64,000 bases of DNA from Desulfovibrio sp. (GTDB lineage Bacteria > Desulfobacterota > Desulfovibrionia > Desulfovibrionales > Desulfovibrionaceae), in the NCBI GenBank assembly GCA_030145055.1, contig JAQYWK010000003.1:1-64000 (forward strand), in the 5' to 3' direction. Positions 8,880 to 54,316 of the stretch are shown here, piece by piece. Position 1 is the stretch's first letter. Each line of letters begins with the position of its first letter. Below the pieces are notes generated by a model. It was given only the letters and a program-made list of their open reading frames with translations. It made no database searches and was not told where the DNA came from. Made by a program: the position numbers and the translations under genes.

Positions 8880-9725
8880 TTAATCCCATTCAGGGTCGCA
8901 CTCAGCTTCAAAACCTTCGAATGAAATTCTCTGGTTGTGCAGATACATTTTACCATCAGCAGTAGCTTCACCGTATACAGCATCCCCTACAATCGGGAAT
9001 CCAGCATGAGCCAGATGCGCTCTGATCTGATGGCGTGCACCTTTTGTGATGCGTACTTTCACAACAACTACGCCATCACTTAAGTCTTTGACTCTGTCTG
9101 CATAACTCCAGCGAAGTCTGTCAGCGTCATCATCAAGCACTTTAGTTACAGCTCTTGAATCTGTATCAAGCTCATTCTTCATAACGAACTCTGAACGAGG
9201 ACTTCCAATAATTCTAGCGAGATATTCTTTCTCTACCTGGCCAGCTTCTTCAAACCCTTTAAAACGACGACTTGCATCATGCCCGAAAGCAACAAGCAAG
9301 ATACCGGAGGTTGAATTATCTAGTCTATTAATTAGAATCGGCTGTCTTTCCGGAAAAAGTTCTGCAAGACAATCCTGCGCGGAAACTTCCAAACTGGACG
9401 CAATGGATGCGGAGTGGATTCCAGCAGGTTTGTAAACTGCGGCGAATTCGCCAGTCTCTTTAATTATTTTAAGACTTGGTAAAATATCCGCAGTCGTAGG
9501 AACGTTCTTTTTTTCAAACAAAACAACTTCCGCACCGACGAACATTTTGAGGCTAGCTTTTGCGCTACGCCTGTTTACAGAAACAAGTCCGTTATCAATG
9601 ATTCTTCTACGTTCACGAAGACTAGTGTCCGGAAGTAGCATAATCAAAAATTTATCGAGACGTAGGCCTTCATCATCTCCAGTCACAACCACTCGTGAAC
9701 ATTCACTTAAATTTGTAATATCCAA
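8880..9725 (-). CDS. RluA-family pseudouridine synthase
   Basis: A 281-residue RNA pseudouridine synthase. An S4-like RNA-binding segment lies at about residues 17-70 (LRLDKFLIMLLPDTSLRERR), followed by the RluA catalytic fold with the signature ILINRLDNSTSGILLVA, whose Asp is the expected catalytic residue, and the late motif GARHQIRAHLAHAGFPIVGD. Which uridine in rRNA or tRNA is modified cannot be told from sequence alone. The start is TTG 9725, with AGGAG 7 bases upstream; no ATG fits the domain boundary as well. It shares a 150-base divergent promoter region with the EamA gene. Confidence 0.9.
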   Translation of the reverse strand: MDITNLSECSRVVVTGDDEGLRLDKFLIMLLPDTSLRERRRIIDNGLVSVNRRSAKASLKMFVGAEVVLFEKKNVPTTADILPSLKIIKETGEFAAVYKPAGIHSASIASSLEVSAQDCLAELFPERQPILINRLDNSTSGILLVAFGHDASRRFKGFEEAGQVEKEYLARIIGSPRSEFVMKNELDTDSRAVTKVLDDDADRLRWSYADRVKDLSDGVVVVKVRITKGARHQIRAHLAHAGFPIVGDAVYGEATADGKMYLHNQRISFEGFEAECDPEWD

Positions 9726-9875
9726 AATTTATCTCCTGATATTTTATAGTTCTATCTTGCGATAGTTCTTTGACGATTTGAGGGAAACAGCATACAACTT
9801 TGCTACTGATTTCAACTGTAAAATTTAAAATAAAAATAGTACTTTTTTACTTATTATATACCATAAGGACCCGAT

Positions 9876-10778
9876 ATGAACATCAAAGGATGTATACTAG
9901 TACTGATAGCCGCAATTATGTGGGGCCTGATCGGACCTATTTCAAAGTTTCCCATTGAAGAAGGAATTCCTCCGCTAGAAAACGCGTTCTGGAGAGCACT
10001 CTTCGCATGGATACTATTCGCTGTCCATGCATACCGTATGCGTGCATTCAGAATAGAACGCAAGGATATGCCCTCTGTCGCCCTATTCGGGGTAGTAGGC
10101 GTCACGGTTTTTTACGGATCATATCAGTTAGCAGTGCACGGAGTCGGCGCTGCTCTAGCCTCTGTTCTACTGTACACCGCTCCGGCATGGGTTGCTGTTA
10201 TGTCATGGATATTCCTAGGAGAAAAGATGGGGCCAATTAAAATTGGTGCTATTTGCATGACTCTCACAGGCGTTGCATGCGTATCACTCGGACCTCAATT
10301 TTTCGGCACGGGCCAAGCCGTAACTCTCACATGGTTCGGAATTATGTGCGGTTTGACCTCTGGTTTTACATACGCCCTTTATTATATTTTCGGCAAAACT
10401 TTTTTTACACGCTACTCAACACCGACAATATTTCTCTATGCTCTTCCCATAGGGGCACTCGGCCTGCTACCGTTTTTTGAATTTCACCATAAAACTCCAG
10501 CTTCATGGGGATCACTAATCGCCCTTGCTGTCATCTGCACCTACGGAGCATATTCTGTTTACTATGCTGGTCTTAAATATCTCGAAGCAACATCCGCATC
10601 CGTTATAGCCACAGTTGAACCTGTTGTTGCCGCCCTACTGGCGTGGTTATGGTGGAATGAAAGTTTCGATTGGACAGGCTACCTCGGAAGCGCACTCATC
10701 ATTTCAGCCGTGCTCATGATAGTTATGGAAAACAAAATTCGGTCCTGCTTTAAAAAATTAAAACCTGCAACAGTATAG
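9876..10778 (+). CDS. DMT-superfamily (EamA) transporter
   Basis: A 300-residue inner-membrane protein with ten hydrophobic segments arranged as two EamA repeats. The repeats show the usual signatures: AIMWGLIGPISKFP and NAFWRALFAWILF at the start of repeat 1, and LKYLEATSASVIATVEPVVA with GYLGSALIISAVLM near the end of repeat 2. EamA proteins export or exchange amino acids, nucleosides or other small metabolites; the substrate here is unknown. AAGGA precedes the start. It lies 25 bases upstream of addA and may be co-transcribed with it. Confidence 0.9.
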   Translation: MNIKGCILVLIAAIMWGLIGPISKFPIEEGIPPLENAFWRALFAWILFAVHAYRMRAFRIERKDMPSVALFGVVGVTVFYGSYQLAVHGVGAALASVLLYTAPAWVAVMSWIFLGEKMGPIKIGAICMTLTGVACVSLGPQFFGTGQAVTLTWFGIMCGLTSGFTYALYYIFGKTFFTRYSTPTIFLYALPIGALGLLPFFEFHHKTPASWGSLIALAVICTYGAYSVYYAGLKYLEATSASVIATVEPVVAALLAWLWWNESFDWTGYLGSALIISAVLMIVMENKIRSCFKKLKPATV

Positions 10779-10803
10779 CTTGCCAGCACAAAGGTCTTGA
10801 AAA

Positions 10804-13800
10804 ATGCTCAAACAGGTTAAAGCCTCCGCCGGATCAGGCAAAACATATGAATTAACCGCGCGCTTCCTGTCGCTCTTAGCTGGGTCACAGGAAGAAGACT
10901 CAATCCCTGTATGTAAATCATCTCAGGCGAAAGGGTATTGCTGGCCCGAAATAATGGCTGTAACCTTCACCAACAAGGCCGCCGCTGAAATGAAAGAGCG
11001 CGTTGTGCGTTCACTTAAGAACCGCGCCCTCGATCTTGAAGGAGACGGACTCGGCAGCGATTGGACTCCTGCGGAGGCGAAAAAACAACTCACTCCGATT
11101 TTGCAACGGTACAGTCGGCTGAACATTAGAACCATCGATAGCCTGTTAAACCTGCTGGTGCGCATCTTCGCCCTTGAGCTTGGCCTAAGCCCCGATTTCC
11201 AGCTTCTTTTTGACCCGACTACCCTCTTTGAACCGAACTTCAATAAATTTCTGACCCACTGCGAGGGAAACGATGAATTCCGCAAAAAGCTCATGGATGA
11301 TGCAGTGGAAAGCCTCGTCCTCAAAGAGAATAAAAAAGGATTCTGGTTGGCAGAGCAAATGCGTTTCAGACTGATACAAATCCTTGGCCATGTGATGGAG
11401 TTTCCGGGCGAAAGGTTGACGGATCAAGAAGAAATCGCAGGAATGCTTCAAGCCGATTACGATAAATATATGAAGGCCGTATCAGCCATGTCTTCATTAA
11501 TAGATAGCGATAGCCTTGCCGCGTCTGCGCATCTCAAAAAATATCTGGCCCACGCGGCAGCTCTCGATTTTATGGGCGAACCAAAAGACTCCGTCATGGT
11601 TCAAAAAGATAACTTCGAAGATTGCGTAAATAAAAAATCCAAAGGCGACATCAATTCTCTGCACGAAAAGATCTATGCTGACCTAAAACAAGCCCACGAA
11701 ACCTACCGCGATCGGGCTATCATTTTGCGCGGGGCTTACGCTCTTGCTCCATTTGTAAAAATCGTGGAAGAAATCCGCGACGATATCATTGAATATCAAT
11801 CGCTGAACGGTATGCTCCTTAGTTCGAATCTGCCGCGAGTCGCATCCTACGTTTTACAAAACGGCGAAGCTCTTCCAGATGCATTCTGCCGTATGGGATC
11901 ACGCCTTCACCACCTGCTAATTGATGAATTTCAGGATACAAGCCTTGCCCAATGGCAAGCAATGGTGCCGCTTGCCGTGGAATGTTTGTCCAAGCGCGGA
12001 AGTCTTTTCTACGTCGGCGACGTTAAGCAGGCTATTTATAGTTGGCGCGGCGGAAGGTCAGAGCTATTCGATGAAATTGCGCAAGATCCAGAACTCACAT
12101 CTATTTCCGAATTTACACCCGGCCATCTAGACTATAACTGGCGCAGTCTTGAAAATGTAATCAAGTTCAACAACTCATTTTTTGATGCACTGGCTGACTT
12201 CGATGTGGCGACTGATCTTGCAGAAATTCTTTACCCGAACGGGCCCGAAGAACAGCAAGGAATACTCGCAGAAAAAATTGCATCCACCTTTGAACACGCA
12301 ACGCAGAGCTTACCACCGAATCAGCCGCGCGAAGGCGGATATGTAAAATTACAAAAACTTTTCGCGGAAACATCATCAGAAATTGAAATTGAAACTAAAC
12401 GTAATTTCGACATTTTAATGGACGACCTGCGCCAGCGCAGAGAATACAAAGATATTTGCGTGCTCGTTAGATCAAACGACCATGCCCAGCTCTTATGTGA
12501 CTGGCTGGTAGAAAAATCCATCCCCGTCATAACCGAGAACAGTTTGCAGCTCGACCGCCATCCGGTTGTAAGGCAACTGGTCTCATTACTTAAGTTTTTA
12601 GATTATCCGCAGGATGACCTTGCGTTCTTAGAATTTATATACGGCAAGGAAGTATTCCAAACAGTATCAGGTATTTCCAACAGCGAAATTACCGAATGGC
12701 TGGCAAATAGAGAAAAAGGGCCGCTCTACCGCCGTTTCGCGGAAAAGTTCCCGACCTTCTGGGACAACCACATTTCACCATTCCTGCGCAAGTCAGGGCT
12801 AATGACTCCTTACGACCTCGCTAGTGAAATGGTCTCCCGCTTCAAAATCATCGAATCATGCCCGGGCGATGAATTATATATCCGCAGATTTCTCGAAGTC
12901 GTACACTTGGCAGAAGAAAACCGCGGCACATCCTTAGCCGCCTTCCTAGATTTCTGGGATTCATCATCCGCTGACGAAAAAGTACCCCTCCCGCAATCAG
13001 TAAATGCGGTACGCATCATGACCATTCACAAATCTAAAGGACTAGAATTTCCGGTTATTATCGTGCCGTTCCATAACTGGTCCGTTTCCGGCTCGGACAC
13101 AACTTTCACCGACATCGAAGTTGACGGCAAAATATTGCTAACTCCAATGTCCAGCTCACTTGGTGATCAATATTACGAAAACCGGACACGCATGTTCACC
13201 GAACAGCTCAACCTTTTATATGTAGCATGGACTAGAGCTGGCGATGAGCTATACGGCTTCATGCCCTCAGAAAAAGTTAAGAGCGTAACGCCTGCATTTT
13301 CCGCCATTGAAACTATTTTAAACGGCAAATTTTCAGACCTAGGTTTACTAGAATACGGCAAACCTCCTGTGGAAGTTGAAATTTCAAACGCTATTCAAAG
13401 CGAATCTAATCAAGAGCCAAGTTTAGATTCTATGGTCGAAACTCACGACGAAAAAAAAACCACCGAGGAATCCCAACCGAAAGAACTTATGGCGTGGCTA
13501 CCCAGACTTCGCGTCTACCGCCATAATTTAGAAGATTACTCATACAACGCCCTTATGCGCGGCGAACTTGCACACAAGGCTATGGAGAATTTAATCCTCA
13601 CAGGTGACGATGCGGCGGATTGTTTGCGCAGTGCGGAAGCGGCATTTGCCCAGTTCCCAGCCATCGCAGATGAGTATGAAACTCTCGTACCAGAAGTAAC
13701 CGCAATGGCACTTTGGGCTTTGTCGGAAAAGGAAGTCCGCACCGCCATAATTAGCGGTAGGCCAGAAGTCGCGATCATGGACAAAAAAGGTGATACCCAT

Positions 13801-40547: not shown

Positions 40548-41585
40548 TTAGCGCCTTTCGTATACTCCCACCTTGTATTCGATCTTTTCGAAAAGCAAGG
40601 TGAATGCGGTTGTGAAAATAAGGTAAATAAATGCAGCAAGGACAAGCACAGTAATATTAAAATATGCGTTGAACATCTGATCTGCCGCGCGCATAAGCTC
40701 AACCATAGCAATGGTAGAGACAAGAGCGGTGTCCTTGATGAGAGCGATAAATTCATTGGCAAAGGGAGGTATAATTCTTTTATATGTCTGCGGAATTATG
40801 ACCCGTCGCATTGTCTGAGAATAAGTCATGCCGATAGCTTTAGCGGCCTCGGTCTGACCATGGTCAATAGACAGAATACCAGCACGGATAATTTCAGCAA
40901 GGTAAGCTGAGTAATTAATCCCAAGCCCTATTAAAGCAGAAGCCAGCGGCGACAAAGTAATCCCAATGGCCGGCAAGCCATAATAGATAAAGAAAAGTTG
41001 CAGCAGAAGCGGAGTCCCGCGGAAAAACCAAATTATGAACCAGCTTATTCCCGAAAAAGGCTGAGTCTTGCTTAGTTTTCCGAGTGCAATAAGAAGCCCA
41101 CCGATAGGAGAAACTATCATCGTAAAAAATACGAGAATAAGCGTCATACTCGCACCTTTTAGGAGCGAAGGCAGAAAGCGAATGCAGTCATCAACGACTT
41201 GGCGCCATTCAGGCCTTACAGATCTATCAACGGATGCGATGAAATTTTTGGCTTCGGCATTATCAGGATAAACTGCCGTAATTTCTTCGGCAGAAGCTCT
41301 AGCTTTGCTCATATTTTTCGTAGAAAAAAAGAGTCTCGCAAGCTGCATGCGCGAGTAAACAAATTCACCTTCATCACCGTCAGGGCCGGGAGCGGGAACC
41401 TGTGCAAAAAGGACTTGAGCCTGATCAATATGACCAAGTGCAAGCGCATCACGAGCCTCTTTGAGGATCGCGTCAGACTCTCCTCCGGCAGATGATACTG
41501 CGGGAGAAGCCAAAAGGGCAAAGAGAAGAAAGAGCGAGGCCAATAAAGCCCCGCCCTTTCCGAATCTATTAACTAAAATAGTCAT
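40548..41585 (-). CDS. Polar amino-acid ABC permease with secreted TPR-like N-terminal domain
   Basis: A 345-residue permease, about 120 residues longer than the usual HisM/GlnP size. Residues 14-34 are a signal-like hydrophobic segment; residues about 37-115 are a TPR-like helical domain (ILKEARDALALGHIDQAQVL, LFFSTKNMSKARASAEEITA) placed in the periplasm. The permease proper starts near 130: LLKGASMTLILVFFTMIVSP, WFFRGTPLLLQLFFIYYG, and the EAA-like loop SIDHGQTEAAKAIGMTYSQT. It lies between the binding protein (3-base gap) and ATPase genes. The extra domain may help capture or sense the binding protein. Confidence 0.9.
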   Translation of the reverse strand: MTILVNRFGKGGALLASLFLLFALLASPAVSSAGGESDAILKEARDALALGHIDQAQVLFAQVPAPGPDGDEGEFVYSRMQLARLFFSTKNMSKARASAEEITAVYPDNAEAKNFIASVDRSVRPEWRQVVDDCIRFLPSLLKGASMTLILVFFTMIVSPIGGLLIALGKLSKTQPFSGISWFIIWFFRGTPLLLQLFFIYYGLPAIGITLSPLASALIGLGINYSAYLAEIIRAGILSIDHGQTEAAKAIGMTYSQTMRRVIIPQTYKRIIPPFANEFIALIKDTALVSTIAMVELMRAADQMFNAYFNITVLVLAAFIYLIFTTAFTLLFEKIEYKVGVYERR

Positions 41586-45732: not shown

Positions 45733-46452
45733 ATGTCAAATAAATTAATTGGAATTGTTGCTGCGATGGAACAGGAAGCAAGTGCTATATGCCCTGTTTC
45801 CGAAAAGAGTAAACTTGGTAAATTCGAACTGCTGTCTGGAATTTTACCGGGCGGCAATAAATTCATGTGCGTGATTTCAGGCATAGGCGCCGAGCGTGCT
45901 TTAGAAGCCGCAACTTTGCTTGCTCAAAAAAATCCAAATATAATACTCAGCGCGGGTGTTTCAGGAGGACTGGCACACGGTCCTGCCGCAGGTGATCTTC
46001 TGGCGGCATCCAGCATTCACTCCGAACTAGCCGATCATAATCCGTGGCAAAAGTCAGAAAACGACGTAGATTTATCCACAGCACTACTGCCAGCCTACGC
46101 TAAAATACCATCCGGCCCAATGGTGACAGTTTCAAAGCCTGTACTTACCCCGAAAGACAAAACATCACTGCACGACAAAACAGGCGCATTGGCCGCAGAT
46201 ATGGAAAGCATCGCGGTAGCAGAAGCCGCCACAAAAGCAGGAATCCCATTTGCATGCATTCGCGCCATAAGTGACGCATCCACCAGAGCAATACCAGCAG
46301 AATCATTAGAAGGAGTTGACCCAAGCGGGAAAACAAAACTCAAACCAATTTTAAAAGCAATAGCCAGTCGCCCGTCTTTGGTACTCGAATTAATCCCAAT
46401 GGGCGTGGACTACTCAAAAGCCTTAAAAAGCTTAGGTAGAATATTTATTTAG
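45733..46452 (+). CDS. hpnG: Hopanoid-associated phosphorylase HpnG (adenosylhopane nucleosidase)
   Basis: A 239-residue nucleoside-phosphorylase-fold protein related to MTA/SAH nucleosidase. The N-terminus GIVAAMEQEASAI, the central LSAGVSGGLAHGPAAGDLL and the C-terminal DMESIAVAEAATKAGIPFACIRAISD with a late RAIPAESLEGVDPSGK match the HpnG group. HpnG releases adenine from adenosylhopane to give ribosylhopane or its phosphate. The assignment over a plain MTA nucleosidase is supported by the convergent hpnH gene 80 bases away and the other hpn genes. AAGGAT precedes ATG 45733. Confidence 0.8.
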   Translation: MSNKLIGIVAAMEQEASAICPVSEKSKLGKFELLSGILPGGNKFMCVISGIGAERALEAATLLAQKNPNIILSAGVSGGLAHGPAAGDLLAASSIHSELADHNPWQKSENDVDLSTALLPAYAKIPSGPMVTVSKPVLTPKDKTSLHDKTGALAADMESIAVAEAATKAGIPFACIRAISDASTRAIPAESLEGVDPSGKTKLKPILKAIASRPSLVLELIPMGVDYSKALKSLGRIFI

Positions 46453-46531: not shown

Positions 46532-47545
46532 CTAATCTAAATTAACACCCTTAAGCGCCAACATAGCACCCTTAATAGGACGTTTCACAGAATCTGCAAC
46601 TGCGGTAGGTTCGAATCCGCAATGGACCATGCAATTGGCACAACGCGGGTCATTTCCGACTCCGTAATTATCCCAGTCAGTTTGTTCCATAAGTTCTTTA
46701 TATGTTGGAACAAATCCGTCTTCAAGTAAGTAGCATGGACGCTGCCAGCCGTGTACTGAGCGACATGGGTTGCCCCAAGGAGAACAAGAGTAGTTCTGGT
46801 TTCCAGCGAGGAAATCGAGGTAGAAACTACTGTGGCTGAAGTCCCATTTTTTCCCTTTACCAAGTCTGAATATTTCGCGGAAAAGCTTCTTACTCTGATC
46901 GCGAGTGAGGAAACTGTCCTGATCTGCTGCAGCTTCATAGCTGAATGCTGACGAAAGAGTCATTCCATCTACACCAAGCTCGGTGAGGAAATCGAAAAAC
47001 TCAGCGGCATTTTCGGGAGTCTGTCCACCAAAAAGAGTTGTATTTGTATTTACTCTGAATCCTTTGGATTTGAGTAACTTAATTGAATTTACAGCGGACT
47101 TGAATACACCTTGCTTGCACACAATATTATCATGAACTGCTTCCAAGCCATCAAGATGAAGGTTAAAAGTAAGGTATGGGCTAGGCTTAAACTGATTGAT
47201 GCGTTCAGGAATTAGAAGTCCATTTGTACAAAGATATACGAACTTTTTGCGCTTAACGAGTTCTTTGACAATTGCAGGCATATCAGGATGTAAAAGAGGT
47301 TCGCCACCAGGAATGGAAACGATTGGTGCTCCGCATTCTTCCACAGCAGCGATGCATTCATCAAACGATAAACGCTGATTTAAAACTTTAGCCGACTGAT
47401 TAATTTTACCACACCCTTTACAGCGCAAATTGCACTGAAAGAGAGGCTCAAGCATTAATACCAAAGGGTAATGTTTGTTGCCTTTAAGTGTTTGAGAAAG
47501 AATATATTTACCGAGTCTTGCTATCTGAATTGCAGGAATTGCCAA
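46532..47545 (-). CDS. hpnH: Adenosyl-hopene transferase HpnH (radical SAM)
   Basis: A 337-residue radical SAM enzyme that joins the 5'-deoxyadenosyl group to diploptene, the first step of C35 hopanoid side-chain synthesis. The cluster motif is FQCNLRCKGCGKI (CxxxCxxC), followed by SIPGGEPLLHPDMP. The N-terminal QIARLGKYILSQTLKGNKHY and the C-terminal Cys-rich DPRCANCMVHCGFEPTAV are typical of HpnH. The start is TTG 47545 with GAGG 8 bases upstream. It is the last gene of the hpnO operon, 38 bases after the TPR-like lipoprotein gene. Confidence 0.93.
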   Translation of the reverse strand: MAIPAIQIARLGKYILSQTLKGNKHYPLVLMLEPLFQCNLRCKGCGKINQSAKVLNQRLSFDECIAAVEECGAPIVSIPGGEPLLHPDMPAIVKELVKRKKFVYLCTNGLLIPERINQFKPSPYLTFNLHLDGLEAVHDNIVCKQGVFKSAVNSIKLLKSKGFRVNTNTTLFGGQTPENAAEFFDFLTELGVDGMTLSSAFSYEAAADQDSFLTRDQSKKLFREIFRLGKGKKWDFSHSSFYLDFLAGNQNYSCSPWGNPCRSVHGWQRPCYLLEDGFVPTYKELMEQTDWDNYGVGNDPRCANCMVHCGFEPTAVADSVKRPIKGAMLALKGVNLD

Positions 47546-47583: not shown

Positions 47584-48312
47584 TTATTTTTTAGGAGCAG
47601 GTGCTTTCTGACATGCACCTATCAACTTCTTATATGTATCATTTTCCAATGATTTTTTATTAAAACTTTTACTCTTTAAAGCAGTATTATACTGCACGCA
47701 CGCATTCTTTTTATCATCATCTTCAAGCAGAGCTGCTCCGTAACCAAGATGATTCAAGTAAAAATCAGGAGCTACTTTCACAGATGTTTCAAAATGCTTT
47801 AAAGACTTACTGAGGCTGCCAACGCTAAGAGGAGCGCCAGGAGCTTCCAAGTAAAGTTCGCCGAGCATCCTATCAGGTCCGGCAAAATCAACTTCGGGAG
47901 ACAGCTTAACAGCCAGCAATGCTTCTTGCTCCAAGATAGGCACAAGGTCAAGTCCGCTTAAGGGCGAAAGTTGCGCATGTTTACCAACTAAATAAGCATA
48001 AAGATAGTGTCCCACACCGCTTTTGGGGTTTTTCTTAAGATATGCTTTGGCTACTTTTTGTCCAGCTTCAGCATACTTAGTTTTATCTACAGTTCCGCTT
48101 TCAAACAAAGAAGCATAACAGGCCACGGACTCAAGTAAATCCGCATCCTTAGTGCTAGCACCAAGAGATTCTGCATCTTTAATGGAGCATGACTTCCAAA
48201 GGCTAACTTCCTTATCCTTGTATACTGGCATTGGAGCATTTGTTTGAGCTGCACAGCTAGAGAAAAACAGTCCAAAAAACAATATTAGCATAAAACGAAA
48301 AGATAATTTCAT
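47584..48312 (-). CDS. TPR-like lipoprotein in the hopanoid operon
   Basis: A 242-residue predicted lipoprotein with lipobox FFSSC (Cys20). The mature part is helical with TPR-like segments (YAEAGQKVAKAYLKKNPKSG, SLKHFETSVKVAPDFYLNHL) and GHYLYAYLVGKHAQLSPLSG, reminiscent of TatT-type partners of TRAP transporters. Its ATG overlaps the stop of the binding-protein gene by 4 bases (ATGA). That coupling and the neighbouring RND exporter suggest it serves in a periplasmic hopanoid-handling assembly. Function unproven. Confidence 0.78.
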   Translation of the reverse strand: MKLSFRFMLILFFGLFFSSCAAQTNAPMPVYKDKEVSLWKSCSIKDAESLGASTKDADLLESVACYASLFESGTVDKTKYAEAGQKVAKAYLKKNPKSGVGHYLYAYLVGKHAQLSPLSGLDLVPILEQEALLAVKLSPEVDFAGPDRMLGELYLEAPGAPLSVGSLSKSLKHFETSVKVAPDFYLNHLGYGAALLEDDDKKNACVQYNTALKSKSFNKKSLENDTYKKLIGACQKAPAPKK

Positions 48313-49103
48313 TGAAGCTCCTGATCAGCAGGACCGAATCCTGATGTTAGCAAAAGTTTGAGCAAATTTGCAGCGGCTGGATCGTCCTTCATATCGAGCA
48401 AAACACCTTGCAGCTTAAATGAATCATCATTTATCTTACCAAACCAAACAACAGGACTGTTCGGAAGCTTATCTGATTCAAAGACAACTTTCATACCTGA
48501 AAACTGCTCACCACTACTGACAACTGAATATTGCACAGCATTCAGGCACACACCAGCGGCTTTACCTCTGTTAACCTTTCGAATCATGCGCAAAGGGCGT
48601 GAAGTTCCTTCAATAACTAGCGGAGCATCAACATGGTTTTTACCAAAAAGTATTTTGCGAGCTTCGGGAGTATATAGCATGGAACCGAATACCGTTCCTT
48701 TAATATCCTTCACGGAATCAGGGCCGTCCGCTGAGACTAGAACGCGCCAGATATCCTTATCAAGTCCCTGCGGCAACGTTGATGCAACGGGATTCATCAT
48801 ATATTTGTCAGCGTAACTCTTAAAAAAAGTTAATCCGCTAATTCCCCATGCGGGCTTATTTTCATCAAGATATTTGACCGCAGGTTCAAGTTCATTAAAA
48901 TATTTGCCGCTAACGGGTTTGCCTATTTTAGCTGAAATATATTCCGCAAGTGAATCCATCACAGGCTGTGCTTCAATGGAAGTTCCGGGCTGACCGGGTT
49001 CAATAATCACAAAATGAAGCGAATTTAGCGGACCAGCCGCGGCCATGACACTTCCGGCTGAAAATATCAGGAAAAGTGTGAATAAGATATTTTTGTTAAG
49101 CAT
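48309..49103 (-). CDS. PhnD-like periplasmic binding protein in the hopanoid operon
   Basis: A 264-residue protein with a signal peptide (hydrophobic to about residue 21, likely cleavage after VMAAA) and the fold signature of the phosphate/phosphonate-binding family: FVIIEPGQPGTSIEAQPVMD, GISGLTFFKSYADKY, FGSMLYTPEARKILFG and RGKAAGVCLNAVQYSVV. No ABC permease or ATPase is nearby. It overlaps the hpnN-like stop (TAATG) and the lipoprotein start (ATGA), so three genes are coupled. A lipid or head-group binding role with the exporter is a reasonable guess, not established. Confidence 0.82.
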   Translation of the reverse strand: MLNKNILFTLFLIFSAGSVMAAAGPLNSLHFVIIEPGQPGTSIEAQPVMDSLAEYISAKIGKPVSGKYFNELEPAVKYLDENKPAWGISGLTFFKSYADKYMMNPVASTLPQGLDKDIWRVLVSADGPDSVKDIKGTVFGSMLYTPEARKILFGKNHVDAPLVIEGTSRPLRMIRKVNRGKAAGVCLNAVQYSVVSSGEQFSGMKVVFESDKLPNSPVVWFGKINDDSFKLQGVLLDMKDDPAAANLLKLLLTSGFGPADQELQ

Positions 49104-51802
49104 TATGAGTTTCGTCCCTTCTTGAACGTTTCAATCAATCTGAAAACTGCGGGAAGCACAACCATGCACCCAACCATACACGTTGCCGAACCGACAACCA
49201 TTATCCCGCCGAGCGAGGCAAGCCCGCGATGATGAGCAAGTAGTAACCCGCCAAAACCGATCATAGTGGTACAAAAACTGAGTCCTACGGCAACCGGTGT
49301 ACTAGTATCGTAGAGCTTCTCTCCTTCGGAAAGCTCCTTCCAACGGGCGAGAAAATGTACTCCACCATCTACTCCGATAGCTATAAGCACCGGAATTGCG
49401 AAGAAATTAGCCAGATTAAAGCTCAGGCCAGTAAAGCCCATAACTTCAAGCAGCCAGAAAATACCAACAAGTAGTGGAACTAAAGTGAGTAAAACATAGC
49501 TGATACTAAATGATGTAAAGAACAAAACAAGCGCAACCAACACTAATGTAAGTCCCGCGGCCTCAACAAAAGTGTCTCGCATAAGGAGTGAGGATTCAAA
49601 GACAACAACCGGAACGCCTGTCACTTCGGGATCAACAGCTCTCAGGTCCGCGACAAAGGATTTTAATAAGTCAAAGTCCCAGATGTTGCCGACAGGAGCA
49701 ATTTTGATCATAAATGACCCGTCTCTACCTATATATAATGAACGTAAATGTTCAGGCAAATCCTGCGGCGCAACAGACTCAACAGCTAAAACATCCTTTA
49801 GCCATGAAAATGCCTCTGAAAGTTCACCGACTAACTGAGTTTGAATGGGGATAAGATTCTGCGCCAATGCAGGACTCTTTTCAATCAAATCGCTACAAGC
49901 AAAAGCATTATCAAGAAGCGCAGAAATAATTTTAAGCTCGTCTTTTGCTCCGGCTGAAAACAGCTTTTCCTCAAGATCTTCTAGAGAGTCCGTCAGATTT
50001 TCCAAAGAATCCAAAACTTGACCGGACTCTATTAAAATAGGCTTTGCAGAAAAATTAAGACCATCTAAGGAATTCGACTCTTGTTTTAAAATAGCCGCTT
50101 TGGAAGCTTGATCTTTAGGAATATAATTTAAAATAGAATCAACTCTTCCCACAGCCGGAATGTTTTTGAGTTCTGCTGTAAGAGTTTTCACTCCATCAAG
50201 ATCAGGTCTGGTCATTACCGCAAACCATGTTGATTCGTCAGATTCCTTAATTAACTTGTGTTCATATTCAACAGATTCAAGGCCTTTTGCCTGTAGATCC
50301 AATAGATTGTAATTAAAGCCAGCTTTTTGGAGACCGGGATATGCAAGAGCTGATAGCGCAACTATAACAAGCAGCACCATTACAGGGCGCGAAATAATTT
50401 TTTCCATAAAAGGCATTGTTGCCAGGCGCGGCTGCGAAGAAGGGAATAGATTACGCTTACCAGCCAAAAGCAAAAGTGAAGGAAGAATAGTCAACATGGA
50501 AATAAGGCAAAAAATAATCCCAGTTCCGCCAATAAGTCCAAGTTCAGCAAGTCCAACAAACTCCTGACCGAGAACAGCATAGAAAGCACAGACCGAAGTT
50601 ATTCCTCCAAGGAGCACTCCGGGGCCAGTATGAAGCAGTGATTCTTCAACAGCCTTCTCGGGAGATAAACCAGAGGCTGTACCTTCAACATAGCGCAAAA
50701 CGACATGAATACCAAAATCCACACCGATGCCAACAAGGACCAGCGCAAAAACAATAGAGAGAAGATTGAGACTTCCAAGGGTGACCAAAGCAAAGCCAAA
50801 GGTCCAAGCCATAGCGCAGAAAAGTGATAACATAACCAGCGCGGGCCTAAGCCAGCCATGAAGAATAATAGTAAATAGCAATCCCACCACTAAAATTGAT
50901 ATGATAGCGGCTATGGTCATATCTTTATCTGTAGTGCTCATTTCGTCAGCAGACAAAACAGGGCGACCTGTAAGCCCTGCGCTAATCTCTGGAAATTCTT
51001 CGCGCGTCTGGTCTAAAGCAACACGAACCACCTTAAGAGCCTGACCGATAACGCCCATTTCTGCGTAATCTTTCTTAGGCAGGATTCGCATGATAAGAAG
51101 GCGGCCATTCTGGGTATAAAAATATTGCTTCCCAACTTCGTTCAGCCCTAAAATTTGCACATCTTTTCCGCTCGCCCCTGCCCCTTCCGTGAGGGAAGAT
51201 TTCATATCTCCGAGCAGTGAATCTAGAGCGCTCATAGTAGGGACAAACATGTCTGCCCCCGCAGATCCGCCCATATCACTTTTACCGCTGAGCAAGCCAG
51301 CAGTCATATCAAGAAATGTTGCTAGCCCGGGACCGCTGAACCATTCACGGCCTAGAGGAGCTATATTTTTCGAAAGTTTCACAAACTCGCGAATTTCATC
51401 TTCTGAAGCGAACATAAGTACGCCCGGCCCCATATCTTTTGCAGACATGGCGTAATAAACTTCGTGAATTACGTCTGTTTTATCTTTAAGCTTTCCCGCA
51501 AGAGAGGACGCAAAAAGCGCGGCCTCTTCTTTGCCCGATTCAGTACCACCAGTTTCAATAACCACGAACATATATTCTTGATCACCGAAATTTTTAATCT
51601 GTGCGAGATTGCGCTTCTGAAAAGGAAGATCATGAGAAAGAAGATTATCCTGATCATTATCAAGAGTCAGGTACATTGCAGATGAGACGGTACAAATAAT
51701 GGCTAAAATAAGCCCGCAAATGACTATTGTTCCCGAGTATGAACGAACCATACGCCATAGAACAAGAATCAAAAAATTCTGAATTTTTTTGAATATATCC
51801 AC
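49103..51802 (-). CDS. hpnN: RND-superfamily exporter, HpnN-like (MMPL type)
   Basis: An 899-residue inner-membrane protein of the HpnN/MMPL type: one N-terminal segment, a large periplasmic domain, five segments (AAIISILVVGLLFTIILHGW, VLVGIGVDFGIHVVLRYVEG, GPGVLLGGITSVCAFYAVLG), a second periplasmic domain, and a final five-segment block (VLIAIGVDGGVHFLARWKEL, AVGLSFCTTMIGFGGLLLAH). The paired GVDFGIH and GVDGGVH motifs are the expected proton-path Asp positions. HpnN moves hopanoids from the inner to the outer membrane. The hpn context supports this over other RND lipid exporters. Confidence 0.82.
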   Translation of the reverse strand: MDIFKKIQNFLILVLWRMVRSYSGTIVICGLILAIICTVSSAMYLTLDNDQDNLLSHDLPFQKRNLAQIKNFGDQEYMFVVIETGGTESGKEEAALFASSLAGKLKDKTDVIHEVYYAMSAKDMGPGVLMFASEDEIREFVKLSKNIAPLGREWFSGPGLATFLDMTAGLLSGKSDMGGSAGADMFVPTMSALDSLLGDMKSSLTEGAGASGKDVQILGLNEVGKQYFYTQNGRLLIMRILPKKDYAEMGVIGQALKVVRVALDQTREEFPEISAGLTGRPVLSADEMSTTDKDMTIAAIISILVVGLLFTIILHGWLRPALVMLSLFCAMAWTFGFALVTLGSLNLLSIVFALVLVGIGVDFGIHVVLRYVEGTASGLSPEKAVEESLLHTGPGVLLGGITSVCAFYAVLGQEFVGLAELGLIGGTGIIFCLISMLTILPSLLLLAGKRNLFPSSQPRLATMPFMEKIISRPVMVLLVIVALSALAYPGLQKAGFNYNLLDLQAKGLESVEYEHKLIKESDESTWFAVMTRPDLDGVKTLTAELKNIPAVGRVDSILNYIPKDQASKAAILKQESNSLDGLNFSAKPILIESGQVLDSLENLTDSLEDLEEKLFSAGAKDELKIISALLDNAFACSDLIEKSPALAQNLIPIQTQLVGELSEAFSWLKDVLAVESVAPQDLPEHLRSLYIGRDGSFMIKIAPVGNIWDFDLLKSFVADLRAVDPEVTGVPVVVFESSLLMRDTFVEAAGLTLVLVALVLFFTSFSISYVLLTLVPLLVGIFWLLEVMGFTGLSFNLANFFAIPVLIAIGVDGGVHFLARWKELSEGEKLYDTSTPVAVGLSFCTTMIGFGGLLLAHHRGLASLGGIMVVGSATCMVGCMVVLPAVFRLIETFKKGRNS

Positions 51803-51858: not shown

Positions 51859-53241
51859 CTAGGAAGTACGAGCAGTACGAATGCCTAAATCTTTAACTGT
51901 TTTCCAACCGGAACCTGTGATTTTATGAGCTTCTTTCAATACTGAATCCATTGCAGTAAGGAATTTATCAACATCACCGTCATTTATCATCAAAGGCGGA
52001 AGGATTTTAACAGTATCAAGACCATGGCCAGCGACCTGACTTAAAATATTATGTTTCTCTAGCAGAGGCATAGTTATCATCTGACAGAACAATTCATCGT
52101 TCATTTTATGCAACAATTTCCAGCTAGCCTTAAGTCCCAATGACTTGGGCTCACCAAACTGCATTCCGATCATAAGTCCAATACCTCGAACTTCGGTCAG
52201 CATTTCATATTTATCTGCCAGCTTCTGCATTCCTTCAATAATTCTATCACCGGTTTTAGCCGCATTTTCCAATAAATTTTCTTTTTCAAGAATTTCTAGC
52301 GTGGCAAGACCGGCAGCCATAGCCAGATCGTTCTGACCGAAAGTATTGGAGTGTGCAAAACATCTTTCCATTGAATCGAAAATTTTAGAATGGATAGCGC
52401 GAGTGGTAATGATTGCCCCGACAGGAATAAACCCTCCGGAAAGAGCCTTGGAAATAACCAAAATATCAGGTTTAACACCCCAGTGTTCCACAGCGAACAT
52501 CTTTCCTGTTCTACCTAGTCCGCACTGAACTTCGTCCGCAATCATCAGAGTTCCATAGCGGTCACAAAGTTCACGCGCCCCCTGAAGGTATCCATCTTCC
52601 GGCACAAAAACGCCCTTACCCTGAACTGTTTCAAAGATGAATGCTCCGACATCTCCGCCAGAAAGGGCTCTTTCAAGTGCGTTCAAGTCGTTAAATGGAA
52701 CAGGCGTGCAATCCGGCAGTAAAGGCTCATTTCTTCCCCTGAACTCCTTATTGCCATTAACAGAAAGGGCCCCGAGAGTCAGACCGTGAAACCCATGATC
52801 GCAATGAACCACCTTATGCCTGCCAGTAGCCTGACGCGCAAATTTCAGAGCGCCCTCGACACTTTCGGTCCCTGAATTGGTAAAAAATACAGCTTCAAGA
52901 TCGCCCGGCGCAAGTTCCGCCAATTTCTCAGCGAGCATTCCGGACAGAACGCCGAGATCCATCTGTACGAGGCTGGCTGTCTTAGCATCAATAATCTCGT
53001 GCAGAACTTCCGCAACATAGGGATGGTTTCGACCTACATTATAAACACCGAATCCTGCCAGAAAATCGAGAACCTTAATCCCTTTAGCATCGGTTAAGTA
53101 CGCCCCCTCAGCACCGCAATAATTGCGATTATAGCCAATTACTTCCAAGACTCTAACAAACTGAGGATTTACAAACTTGCGATGCAGATCATAAGCCTCT
53201 GTAATTTTTGATTTATATTTATCTACAATATCAGAACGCAT
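51859..53241 (-). CDS. hpnO: Hopanoid-associated class III aminotransferase HpnO
   Basis: A 460-residue PLP-dependent class III aminotransferase. Landmarks: YLTDAKGIKVLDFLAGFGVY, NSGTESVEGALKFARQATGR, CDHGFHGLTLGALSVNG, the PLP-phosphate and ring contacts in LMIADEVQCGLGRTG, and the Schiff-base Lys in VISKALSGGFIPVGAI. Ornithine and acetylornithine aminotransferases share these, but the hpn operon points to HpnO, which forms aminobacteriohopanetriol. I start at ATG 53241 with GGAG 11 bases upstream; a TTG at 53250 leaves only 2 bases to the ribosome-binding site. It heads the operon, 56 bases before hpnN. Confidence 0.85.
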   Translation of the reverse strand: MRSDIVDKYKSKITEAYDLHRKFVNPQFVRVLEVIGYNRNYCGAEGAYLTDAKGIKVLDFLAGFGVYNVGRNHPYVAEVLHEIIDAKTASLVQMDLGVLSGMLAEKLAELAPGDLEAVFFTNSGTESVEGALKFARQATGRHKVVHCDHGFHGLTLGALSVNGNKEFRGRNEPLLPDCTPVPFNDLNALERALSGGDVGAFIFETVQGKGVFVPEDGYLQGARELCDRYGTLMIADEVQCGLGRTGKMFAVEHWGVKPDILVISKALSGGFIPVGAIITTRAIHSKIFDSMERCFAHSNTFGQNDLAMAAGLATLEILEKENLLENAAKTGDRIIEGMQKLADKYEMLTEVRGIGLMIGMQFGEPKSLGLKASWKLLHKMNDELFCQMITMPLLEKHNILSQVAGHGLDTVKILPPLMINDGDVDKFLTAMDSVLKEAHKITGSGWKTVKDLGIRTARTS

Positions 53242-53467
53242 CTTTAACAAAGCTCCACTATAAATTTACAAACGTTTATTCTTATTAACTTAACTAAGGG
53301 AAAATACTCTGCTTGCCTTCTGCGGTCAATGGGTTGCGGACTATTTTGAAGGATTAGAACAAAGTTGCAAATTCCATCATTGCCCTGTAGATTTACGCAC
53401 ATCATTTTCGAAAATGAAACAGAACAGAAGTGAATAAAAATCCTGATTGAAAAGGAGAGTTTAAATA

Positions 53468-54316
53468 ATGGATAAAGTTGTAAGAGCCGAAACCGCTGGT
53501 TTTTGTATGGGAGTTGATCTGGCCCTCAACAAGCTGGATTCTCTAATTGAAAGTAGGAATCGCGGTTCAATATACATTTTGGGACCAATCATTCACAACC
53601 CGCAAGTACTCGAAGAGTATGAAAAACAGGGTGTGATAACAGCCGATTTAGCCAGCGAAATACCGACCGGAGCCTATGCCGTCATTCGTGCCCACGGTGT
53701 TCCACAAAGCGTTGAAGAAGAGCTTCGCGAACGTGGTATAAATGTAATAGACGCAACCTGCCCGAAAGTAAAAAAAGCTCAGTTACTTATTAAACGTAAC
53801 ACCACAGATGGACGAGTTTTACTACTCTACGGCGAAGACAGCCATCCTGAAGTTAAAGGTCTTTTAAGCTACGCTCCATCAGGTACACATCTTTTTGATA
53901 GCATTGAAGAACTTGAAGCTATCGAACTGGATACGAACCGCAAGTACTGTCTTGCAGCGCAGACCACTCAAGACCGGATTATTTACGAAGATATTATTAA
54001 GATACTCGAGAAAAAAGGTTTGGACGTAATAGTACTGAACTCCATATGCGATGCAACCCGTCAGCGTCAGGAAGAAGCCATCACGCTCTCAAGCGAAGTG
54101 GACCACATGATCGTTGTCGGCGGTCGCATCAGCGGCAACACTCGCAGACTTGTCCAAGTTGTTGAAGCTGCCGGAACAAAATGTACACATGTTGAAGTTG
54201 CAAGTGAACTTCCTCTTGATGATCTGAAAGGATCGAATAAAATTGGCCTGACAGCAGGAGCATCAACTCCAAAACATCTGGTTGATGCAATTCAGCAAAT
54301 TCTTGAAAAGATATAG
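53468..54316 (+). CDS. ispH: 4-hydroxy-3-methylbut-2-enyl diphosphate reductase IspH
   Basis: A 282-residue Fe-S enzyme that makes IPP and DMAPP in the last step of the MEP pathway. Cluster-binding cysteines are Cys13 (GFCMGVDLAL), Cys98 (DATCPKVKK) and Cys194 (SICDATRQRQEE). Other family motifs: RAHGVPQSVEEELRERG, LLYGEDSHPEVKGLLSY, MIVVGGRISGNTRRLVQV and GLTAGASTPKHLV. AAGGAG precedes ATG 53468. It is divergent from hpnO across 217 bases, so isoprenoid precursor supply and hopanoid tailoring could share regulation. Confidence 0.97.
   Translation: MDKVVRAETAGFCMGVDLALNKLDSLIESRNRGSIYILGPIIHNPQVLEEYEKQGVITADLASEIPTGAYAVIRAHGVPQSVEEELRERGINVIDATCPKVKKAQLLIKRNTTDGRVLLLYGEDSHPEVKGLLSYAPSGTHLFDSIEELEAIELDTNRKYCLAAQTTQDRIIYEDIIKILEKKGLDVIVLNSICDATRQRQEEAITLSSEVDHMIVVGGRISGNTRRLVQVVEAAGTKCTHVEVASELPLDDLKGSNKIGLTAGASTPKHLVDAIQQILEKI

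Follow-up and report, generated by a model that had tools for sequence, protein, structure and literature searches.

The window, the whole 64,000-nucleotide stretch of Desulfovibrio sp. DNA that was analysed, probably contains a hopanoid-export operon in which a BstBC-type pair of periplasmic carriers sits in the slot of HpnM. The genes of its central trio (an HpnN-like RND exporter, a BstB-like binding protein and a BstC-like lipoprotein), their order, homology, predicted folds and genomic linkage are directly observed. As judged from sequence comparison, the two proteins beside the exporter are good candidates for periplasmic carriers of hopanoids to the outer membrane. The genes and their junctions are:

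45733..46452 (+): HpnG-like phosphorylase, convergent neighbour (TIGR03468, 153.7 bits, below the cut-off of 187.1)
46532..47545 (-): HpnH, adenosyl-hopene transferase, directly downstream of the BstC-like gene (TIGR03470, 528.9 bits, cut-off 225.05)
47584..48312 (-): BstC-like TPR-fold lipoprotein, 242 aa, with lipobox cysteine C20
48309..48312 (-): ATGA overlap of the BstB-like stop and the BstC-like start
48309..49103 (-): BstB-like (PhnD-like) periplasmic binding protein, 264 aa (PF12974)
49101..49105 (-): TAATG overlap of the RND stop and the BstB-like start
49103..51802 (-): HpnN-like (MMPL/HAE3) RND exporter, 899 aa, GTG start
51859..53250 (-): class-III aminotransferase, directly upstream of the RND gene (PF00202)
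53468..54316 (+): IspH, isoprenoid precursor enzyme, divergent neighbour (TIGR00216, 260.7 bits, cut-off 187.85)

The trio is flanked by gaps of 56 bases on the aminotransferase side and 38 bases on the hpnH side, and the aminotransferase (51859..53250) would have an HpnO-like role. Both overlaps described in the earlier note were read in the sequence, TAATG at 49105-49101 and ATGA at 48312-48309. Its description of a binding protein lacking an ABC permease is borne out as well: the window ORFs and family search place no permease gene between the aminotransferase and HpnH genes, and no ABC permease or ATPase, TRAP permease or histidine kinase gene in the operon. Elsewhere in the window (40548-41585 (-)) there is an amino-acid-type ABC permease, identified by reading the translation, with an apparent N-terminal signal and a helical, TPR-like stretch of ~130 residues before the membrane part; its homologue in L043 has a start that looks alike.

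The window RND scores 547.9 bits against the HpnN model TIGR03480 (curated cut-off 751.85), 346.4 bits against NF052374 and 287.7 bits against the BstA model NF045600 (cut-off 1400). Because the first of these falls below the curated cut-off the exporter is termed HpnN-like, with HpnN itself not established, and the same label in the earlier note was well chosen; in none of the 29 BstB-bearing genomes is there an RND above the TIGR03480 cut-off. In a quickly built tree, drawn with a midpoint root and without bootstrap, 25 BstBC-linked RNDs (that of the window and 24 others) all lie to the same side of a branch with 100% SH-aLRT support and group with the HpnN-type RNDs, and Methylococcus BstA and the RND of genome G181 form a separate pair. 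The BstBC-linked rows of this tree were picked through BstB and second related RND copies were not placed in it, so that the single clade is no proof that this RND never occurs without the pair. Two Desulfuromonadales genomes have a second RND, 44-46% identical to that of the window, with no BstB or BstC adjoining:

L136 2517-5180 (-): second RND without the pair
L137 2300-4975 (-): second RND without the pair

The BstB-like protein matches PF12974 (38.7 bits, cut-off 27) and scores 60.3 bits against the curated BstB model NF045601 (cut-off 350). Its predicted structure has a mean pLDDT of 90.1, and its best PDB match both by sequence and by predicted fold is BstB (7T1M). In a tree of these proteins, 10 PhnD-like controls stand apart from the BstB-like set and also from the proteins of G181 (true-BstB-like) and G269. 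These last two have long branches and fall outside the hopanoid-linked set, and their joining with each other is unsure because the tree contains several long branches (L126, L041, L040, L131). With its RND on the HpnN side and its BstB-like protein apart from the PhnD-like controls, the window therefore combines an HpnN-side pump with a BstBC-side pair.

The pocket residues of the BstB-like protein neither support nor refute a lipid ligand. The BstB head-group residues Glu118, Tyr120 and Asn192 align to Asp117, Trp119 and Asn188 in the window protein, and across 28 sequences (window included) these positions are occupied by Asp in 27, Trp in 27, and Asp in 26 or Asn in 2, respectively; the PhnD-like controls have Tyr-Ala-Asp in eight of 10. 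At 19 positions lining the sterol tail the window protein has 11 hydrophobic residues, Methylococcus BstB 15 and the 10 PhnD-like controls 11–14, such that the window value lies within the control range and the test does not discriminate. Pocket hydrophobicity was accordingly dropped as a sign of a lipid ligand, the controls scoring as high. The serine/threonine motif S[TS][ST]G, taken as a PhnD marker, was also uninformative, as it is absent from all 40 proteins, controls included. The earlier note had named a pocket fitting a small anion alone as evidence against its proposal; the best fold match is the sterol-binding BstB, although mapped hydrophobicity does not separate the protein from the PhnD-like controls, and such a pocket may still be present.

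AioX and ArrX are permease-free PF12974 proteins with a sensor role, and both are also high fold matches of the BstB-like model. Taken with pocket residues that do not separate carriers from small-anion binders, these matches would fit a BstB-like protein that senses or regulates envelope state and carries no lipid. We regard this as very unlikely, as there is no histidine kinase gene in the operon, the gene overlaps those of an exporter and of a lipoprotein whose best match is BstC, and BstB tops both the sequence and the fold search.

The BstC-like protein has a sub-threshold TPR match (13.5 bits, cut-off 24.4), but its model is mostly helical, has a mean pLDDT of 90.0 and matches TPR-type folds, and the lipobox cysteine C20 is invariant in all 21 aligned sequences (window included), in agreement with the TPR-like lipoprotein proposed earlier. 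Its best PDB match is BstC (7T1S), again by both sequence and predicted fold; it scores 72.9 bits against the curated BstC model NF045602 (cut-off 350), and some of the BstC cavity residues are kept and some replaced. BstC-family matches occur in 49 of the 297 genomes of a phylum sample and were dropped as a proxy for the pair, those inspected often being TPR lipoproteins away from hopanoid genes; BstBC pairs were counted if linked to an RND or to BstB.

Matches of at least 57.9 bits to the BstC family are present in 17 of the 297 phylum-sample genomes, 12 of them with SHC, a link that shared ancestry may explain. These 17 comprise five triplet genomes, G274 and others, and at eight other such places (L087-L092, L094, L095) no hopanoid gene was recognised nearby. 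In G274 (L093 5738-10359) hpnH is immediately preceded by a BstC-like gene, HpnG-like and SHC genes are also there, and neither BstB nor an HpnN-type RND was detected in that genome.

A collection of 84,980 species genomes was scanned with the BstB-like alignment using two short peptide patterns. This identified 25 loci, which are not a full census since divergent BstB proteins would be missed, and all are in records named deltaproteobacteria or groups within them. Together with the window, G096, G100 and G364 they constitute 29 distinct loci, with the duplicates L038=L103 and L039=L115 counted once. The RND gene adjoins BstB in 25 of the 29, a BstC match follows BstB in 28 (short or broken in three: L109, L110 and L113), 24 also contain HpnH, an aminotransferase gene is upstream of the RND in 17, and SHC is within the locus in four. 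The four-base BstB/BstC overlap seen in the window (ATGA) recurs in at least nine of 27 other loci, and the RND-BstB-BstC neighbourhood exceeds chance. An HpnN-type RND is present somewhere in 28 of the 29 BstB-bearing genomes, and the earlier note's own ground for rejection, that the pair should occur mostly without hpnN, is thus contradicted by both the loci and the genomes.

Loci lacking parts of this arrangement are of several kinds. Upstream sequence is present and no RND is adjacent in L105, L119 and L121; the L105 genome has a related RND on another contig, the L119 genome has an HpnN-type RND of another type beside an HpnA-like gene, and the L121 sequence ends inside BstB. The L108 contig starts at BstB and HpnH is absent from the 2.5 kb downstream of its BstC, and in the same genome an RND gene and an aminotransferase gene are at the start of another contig, facing outwards. 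The sequences of L110, L118 and L120 end soon after BstC.

The cargo in the window is very probably a hopanoid, as suggested by gene content. A squalene cyclase family member scores above cut-off on contig C5 of the window genome, and squalene/oxidosqualene cyclase is found in 27 of the 29 BstB-bearing genomes (not detected in G394 and G411) as compared with 50 of 297 in the phylum sample. Squalene epoxidase, which is needed for sterols, was found in none of the 29 (PF08491; window genome included), and a sterol cargo is therefore not expected. Among 101 genomes of an order sample, three have full-length BstB and four have SHC, all three BstB genomes being among the four (Fisher p 2.4e-5, ignoring shared ancestry); G038 has SHC without the pair, and a weak BstB match in G087 (E 3.3e-4, 72 residues, stops inside) was left out of the count. 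All four hopanoid-type triplet genomes of the phylum sample have SHC (hypergeometric p 7e-4, which likewise ignores shared ancestry). With hpnH and an aminotransferase gene in the operon, C35 aminopolyols would be the likeliest cargo; Desulfovibrio strains hold aminotriol, according to a passage in PMC8102298 citing Blumenberg 2006.

Two genomes have related modules in other settings. In G269 (L041) a BstB-BstC pair (9608-11210 (+)), overlapping head to tail, converges on an HAE3-type MMPL gene (11207-13564 (-)) that is not HpnN-like; neither squalene cyclase nor squalene epoxidase was detected in this genome, and a third cargo for the module is possible. G181 (L040 7280-11651 (+)) has a near-true BstABC, with 1261 (cut-off 1400), 378 (350) and 279 (350) bits, and a search for squalene cyclase and squalene epoxidase found neither; with 8% contamination listed for the genome, the contig may be foreign. 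The module is consequently not tied to hopanoids everywhere.

These two genomes, with the two BstB-bearing genomes in which no cyclase was detected, are what favours a pair handling another envelope lipid (e.g. a phospholipid or a squalene/carotenoid-type isoprenoid) and sharing the operon for co-regulation. Such a role for the window pair is unlikely given the cyclase in 27 of 29 BstB-bearing genomes and HpnH in 24 of 29 loci, and because the G269 and G181 proteins fall outside the hopanoid-linked set on their long branches.

Hopanoid carriage by the pair is also consistent with how MlaC-like genes are distributed. There are 50 HpnN-type places in the phylum sample, of which five have Bst-type pairs and 42 are taken as other loci, leaving out three places (G175 twice, G176). 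In 20 of the 42, an MlaC/HpnM-like gene is no more than 400 bases from the RND, and BstB and BstC are in none of them. Conversely, no MlaC-like match was found in 30 BstB-type loci (28 distinct, the window being outside this count), and neither the BstB-like nor the BstC-like protein matches PF05494 (MlaC) at E≤0.1. Five of the MlaC-like proteins were confirmed by Pfam, and the best match of one scanned with NCBIfam is HpnM (TIGR03481, 79 bits, cut-off 160.1). MlaC lies directly beside the RND in 19 genomes, 16 of them with SHC. The single PF05494 match of the window genome lies in an mla-like operon, together with MlaF-, MlaD- and MlaA-like genes (neighbours named from their translations).

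From the comparison of loci, BstBC-like and MlaC-like genes seem to be alternative companions of HpnN-type exporters, with a BstBC-like pair apparently serving in these bacteria in the role that HpnM has elsewhere. A single genome may nevertheless have both arms: in G408 one contig holds the L118 triplet, and a second contig carries an HpnN-type RND together with MlaC (L138 2288-5604 (+)). The periplasmic arm of hopanoid export proposed in the earlier note, in HpnM's place, is thus well backed by context and homology, but not as undescribed, since BstB and BstC of Methylococcus capsulatus are characterised relatives.

A plausible pathway begins with SHC, encoded on another contig, which would make diploptene. 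HpnH, the HpnG-like protein and the aminotransferase, whose families are established, would extend it to C35 bacteriohopanepolyols. By analogy with HpnN, the proton-driven HpnN-like RND would then lift the hopanoid from the inner membrane; the BstB-like clamshell protein, if it acts as BstB does, would take it into its cleft and carry it through the periplasm; and the BstC-like lipoprotein, which is probably destined for the outer membrane, would accept and deliver it there in the manner of BstC. The BstBC-like pair would in this way fill the slot of the MlaC-like HpnM beside other HpnN-type exporters. We infer hopanoid binding, transport direction, hand-over order and outer-membrane sorting of the pair from the related systems.

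Transport could also run in the opposite direction, or serve recycling, with BstC and BstB taking lipids (hopanoids or others) back from the outer membrane. Mla retrieves phospholipids from the outer membrane, and HpnM, whose slot the pair fills, is MlaC-like; moreover, sections of PMC10942540 implicate TRAP T-components in import and PhnD in uptake. The operon has no ABC or TRAP permease importer, its only membrane partner being an RND of the exporter class, and retrieval is highly unlikely.

Hopanoids are bacterial counterparts of sterols, and the machinery delivering them to the outer membrane is poorly known. How they cross the periplasm becomes directly testable because the operon provides two soluble, expressible candidates with solved homologues. 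More tentatively, RND-BstB-BstC could be a general system for triterpenoid-lipid export, acting on hopanoids in anaerobic deltaproteobacteria and on sterols in methanotrophs; in some Desulfobacterota it would then stand in for HpnM and carry mainly hpnH-dependent C35 bacteriohopanepolyols. The version for sterols may be derived from, or share an ancestor with, one for hopanoids. A sharing of machinery between bacterial sterol and hopanoid trafficking is suggested, which bears on the origin of bacterial sterol handling.

Among known systems, no report of a hopanoid-linked BstBC was found in the literature searched, and PMC10942540 was the one paper found whose searched text names both Bst proteins and hopanoids. 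The pair is nonetheless not undescribed as a kind, as its relatives BstB and BstC of M. capsulatus are characterised. The PF12974 small-anion binders PhnD, PtxB, AioX and ArrX differ in context, the window operon having no ABC permease or sensor kinase, and the BstB-like set is apart from the 10 PhnD-like controls in the tree. TatT/Tp0956 (TRAP T-component, TPAT) is among the closest known systems. The HpnN and HpnM system likewise joins an HpnN-type RND to a neighbouring gene for a periplasmic partner, for the most part in SHC genomes, although the partner in the window is a BstB/BstC-like pair and not MlaC. Hopanoid movement towards the outer membrane is attributed to HpnN (Doughty 2011, cited in passages of PMC10942540 and PMC12583986), and HpnM is described in part of PMC12583986 as ‘possibly involved in transport’, with an exact function that ‘remains elusive’.

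The closest parallel in composition is BstABC of M. capsulatus, in which BstB and BstC are sterol-binding partners of one operon, as stated in sections of Zhai 2024 (PMC10942540), where HpnN is also given as a structural relative of BstA. In the window, too, an RND, a PF12974 clamshell protein and a TPR-fold lipoprotein are encoded together. When given an extract with hopanoids as well as sterols, the Methylococcus proteins BstB and BstC and the BstA periplasmic domain favoured the sterols, according to the same sections, and the family is therefore no default hopanoid binder. The window trio differs in that its RND groups with HpnN-type RNDs rather than BstA, it is placed with hpnH, and it scores 60–288 bits where the curated cut-offs are 350–1400; moreover, the BstB-bearing genomes have a cyclase in 27 of 29 and squalene epoxidase in none of 29. 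Being well below all of the curated cut-offs, the three proteins are a variant rather than members of HpnN or of BstA, BstB and BstC.
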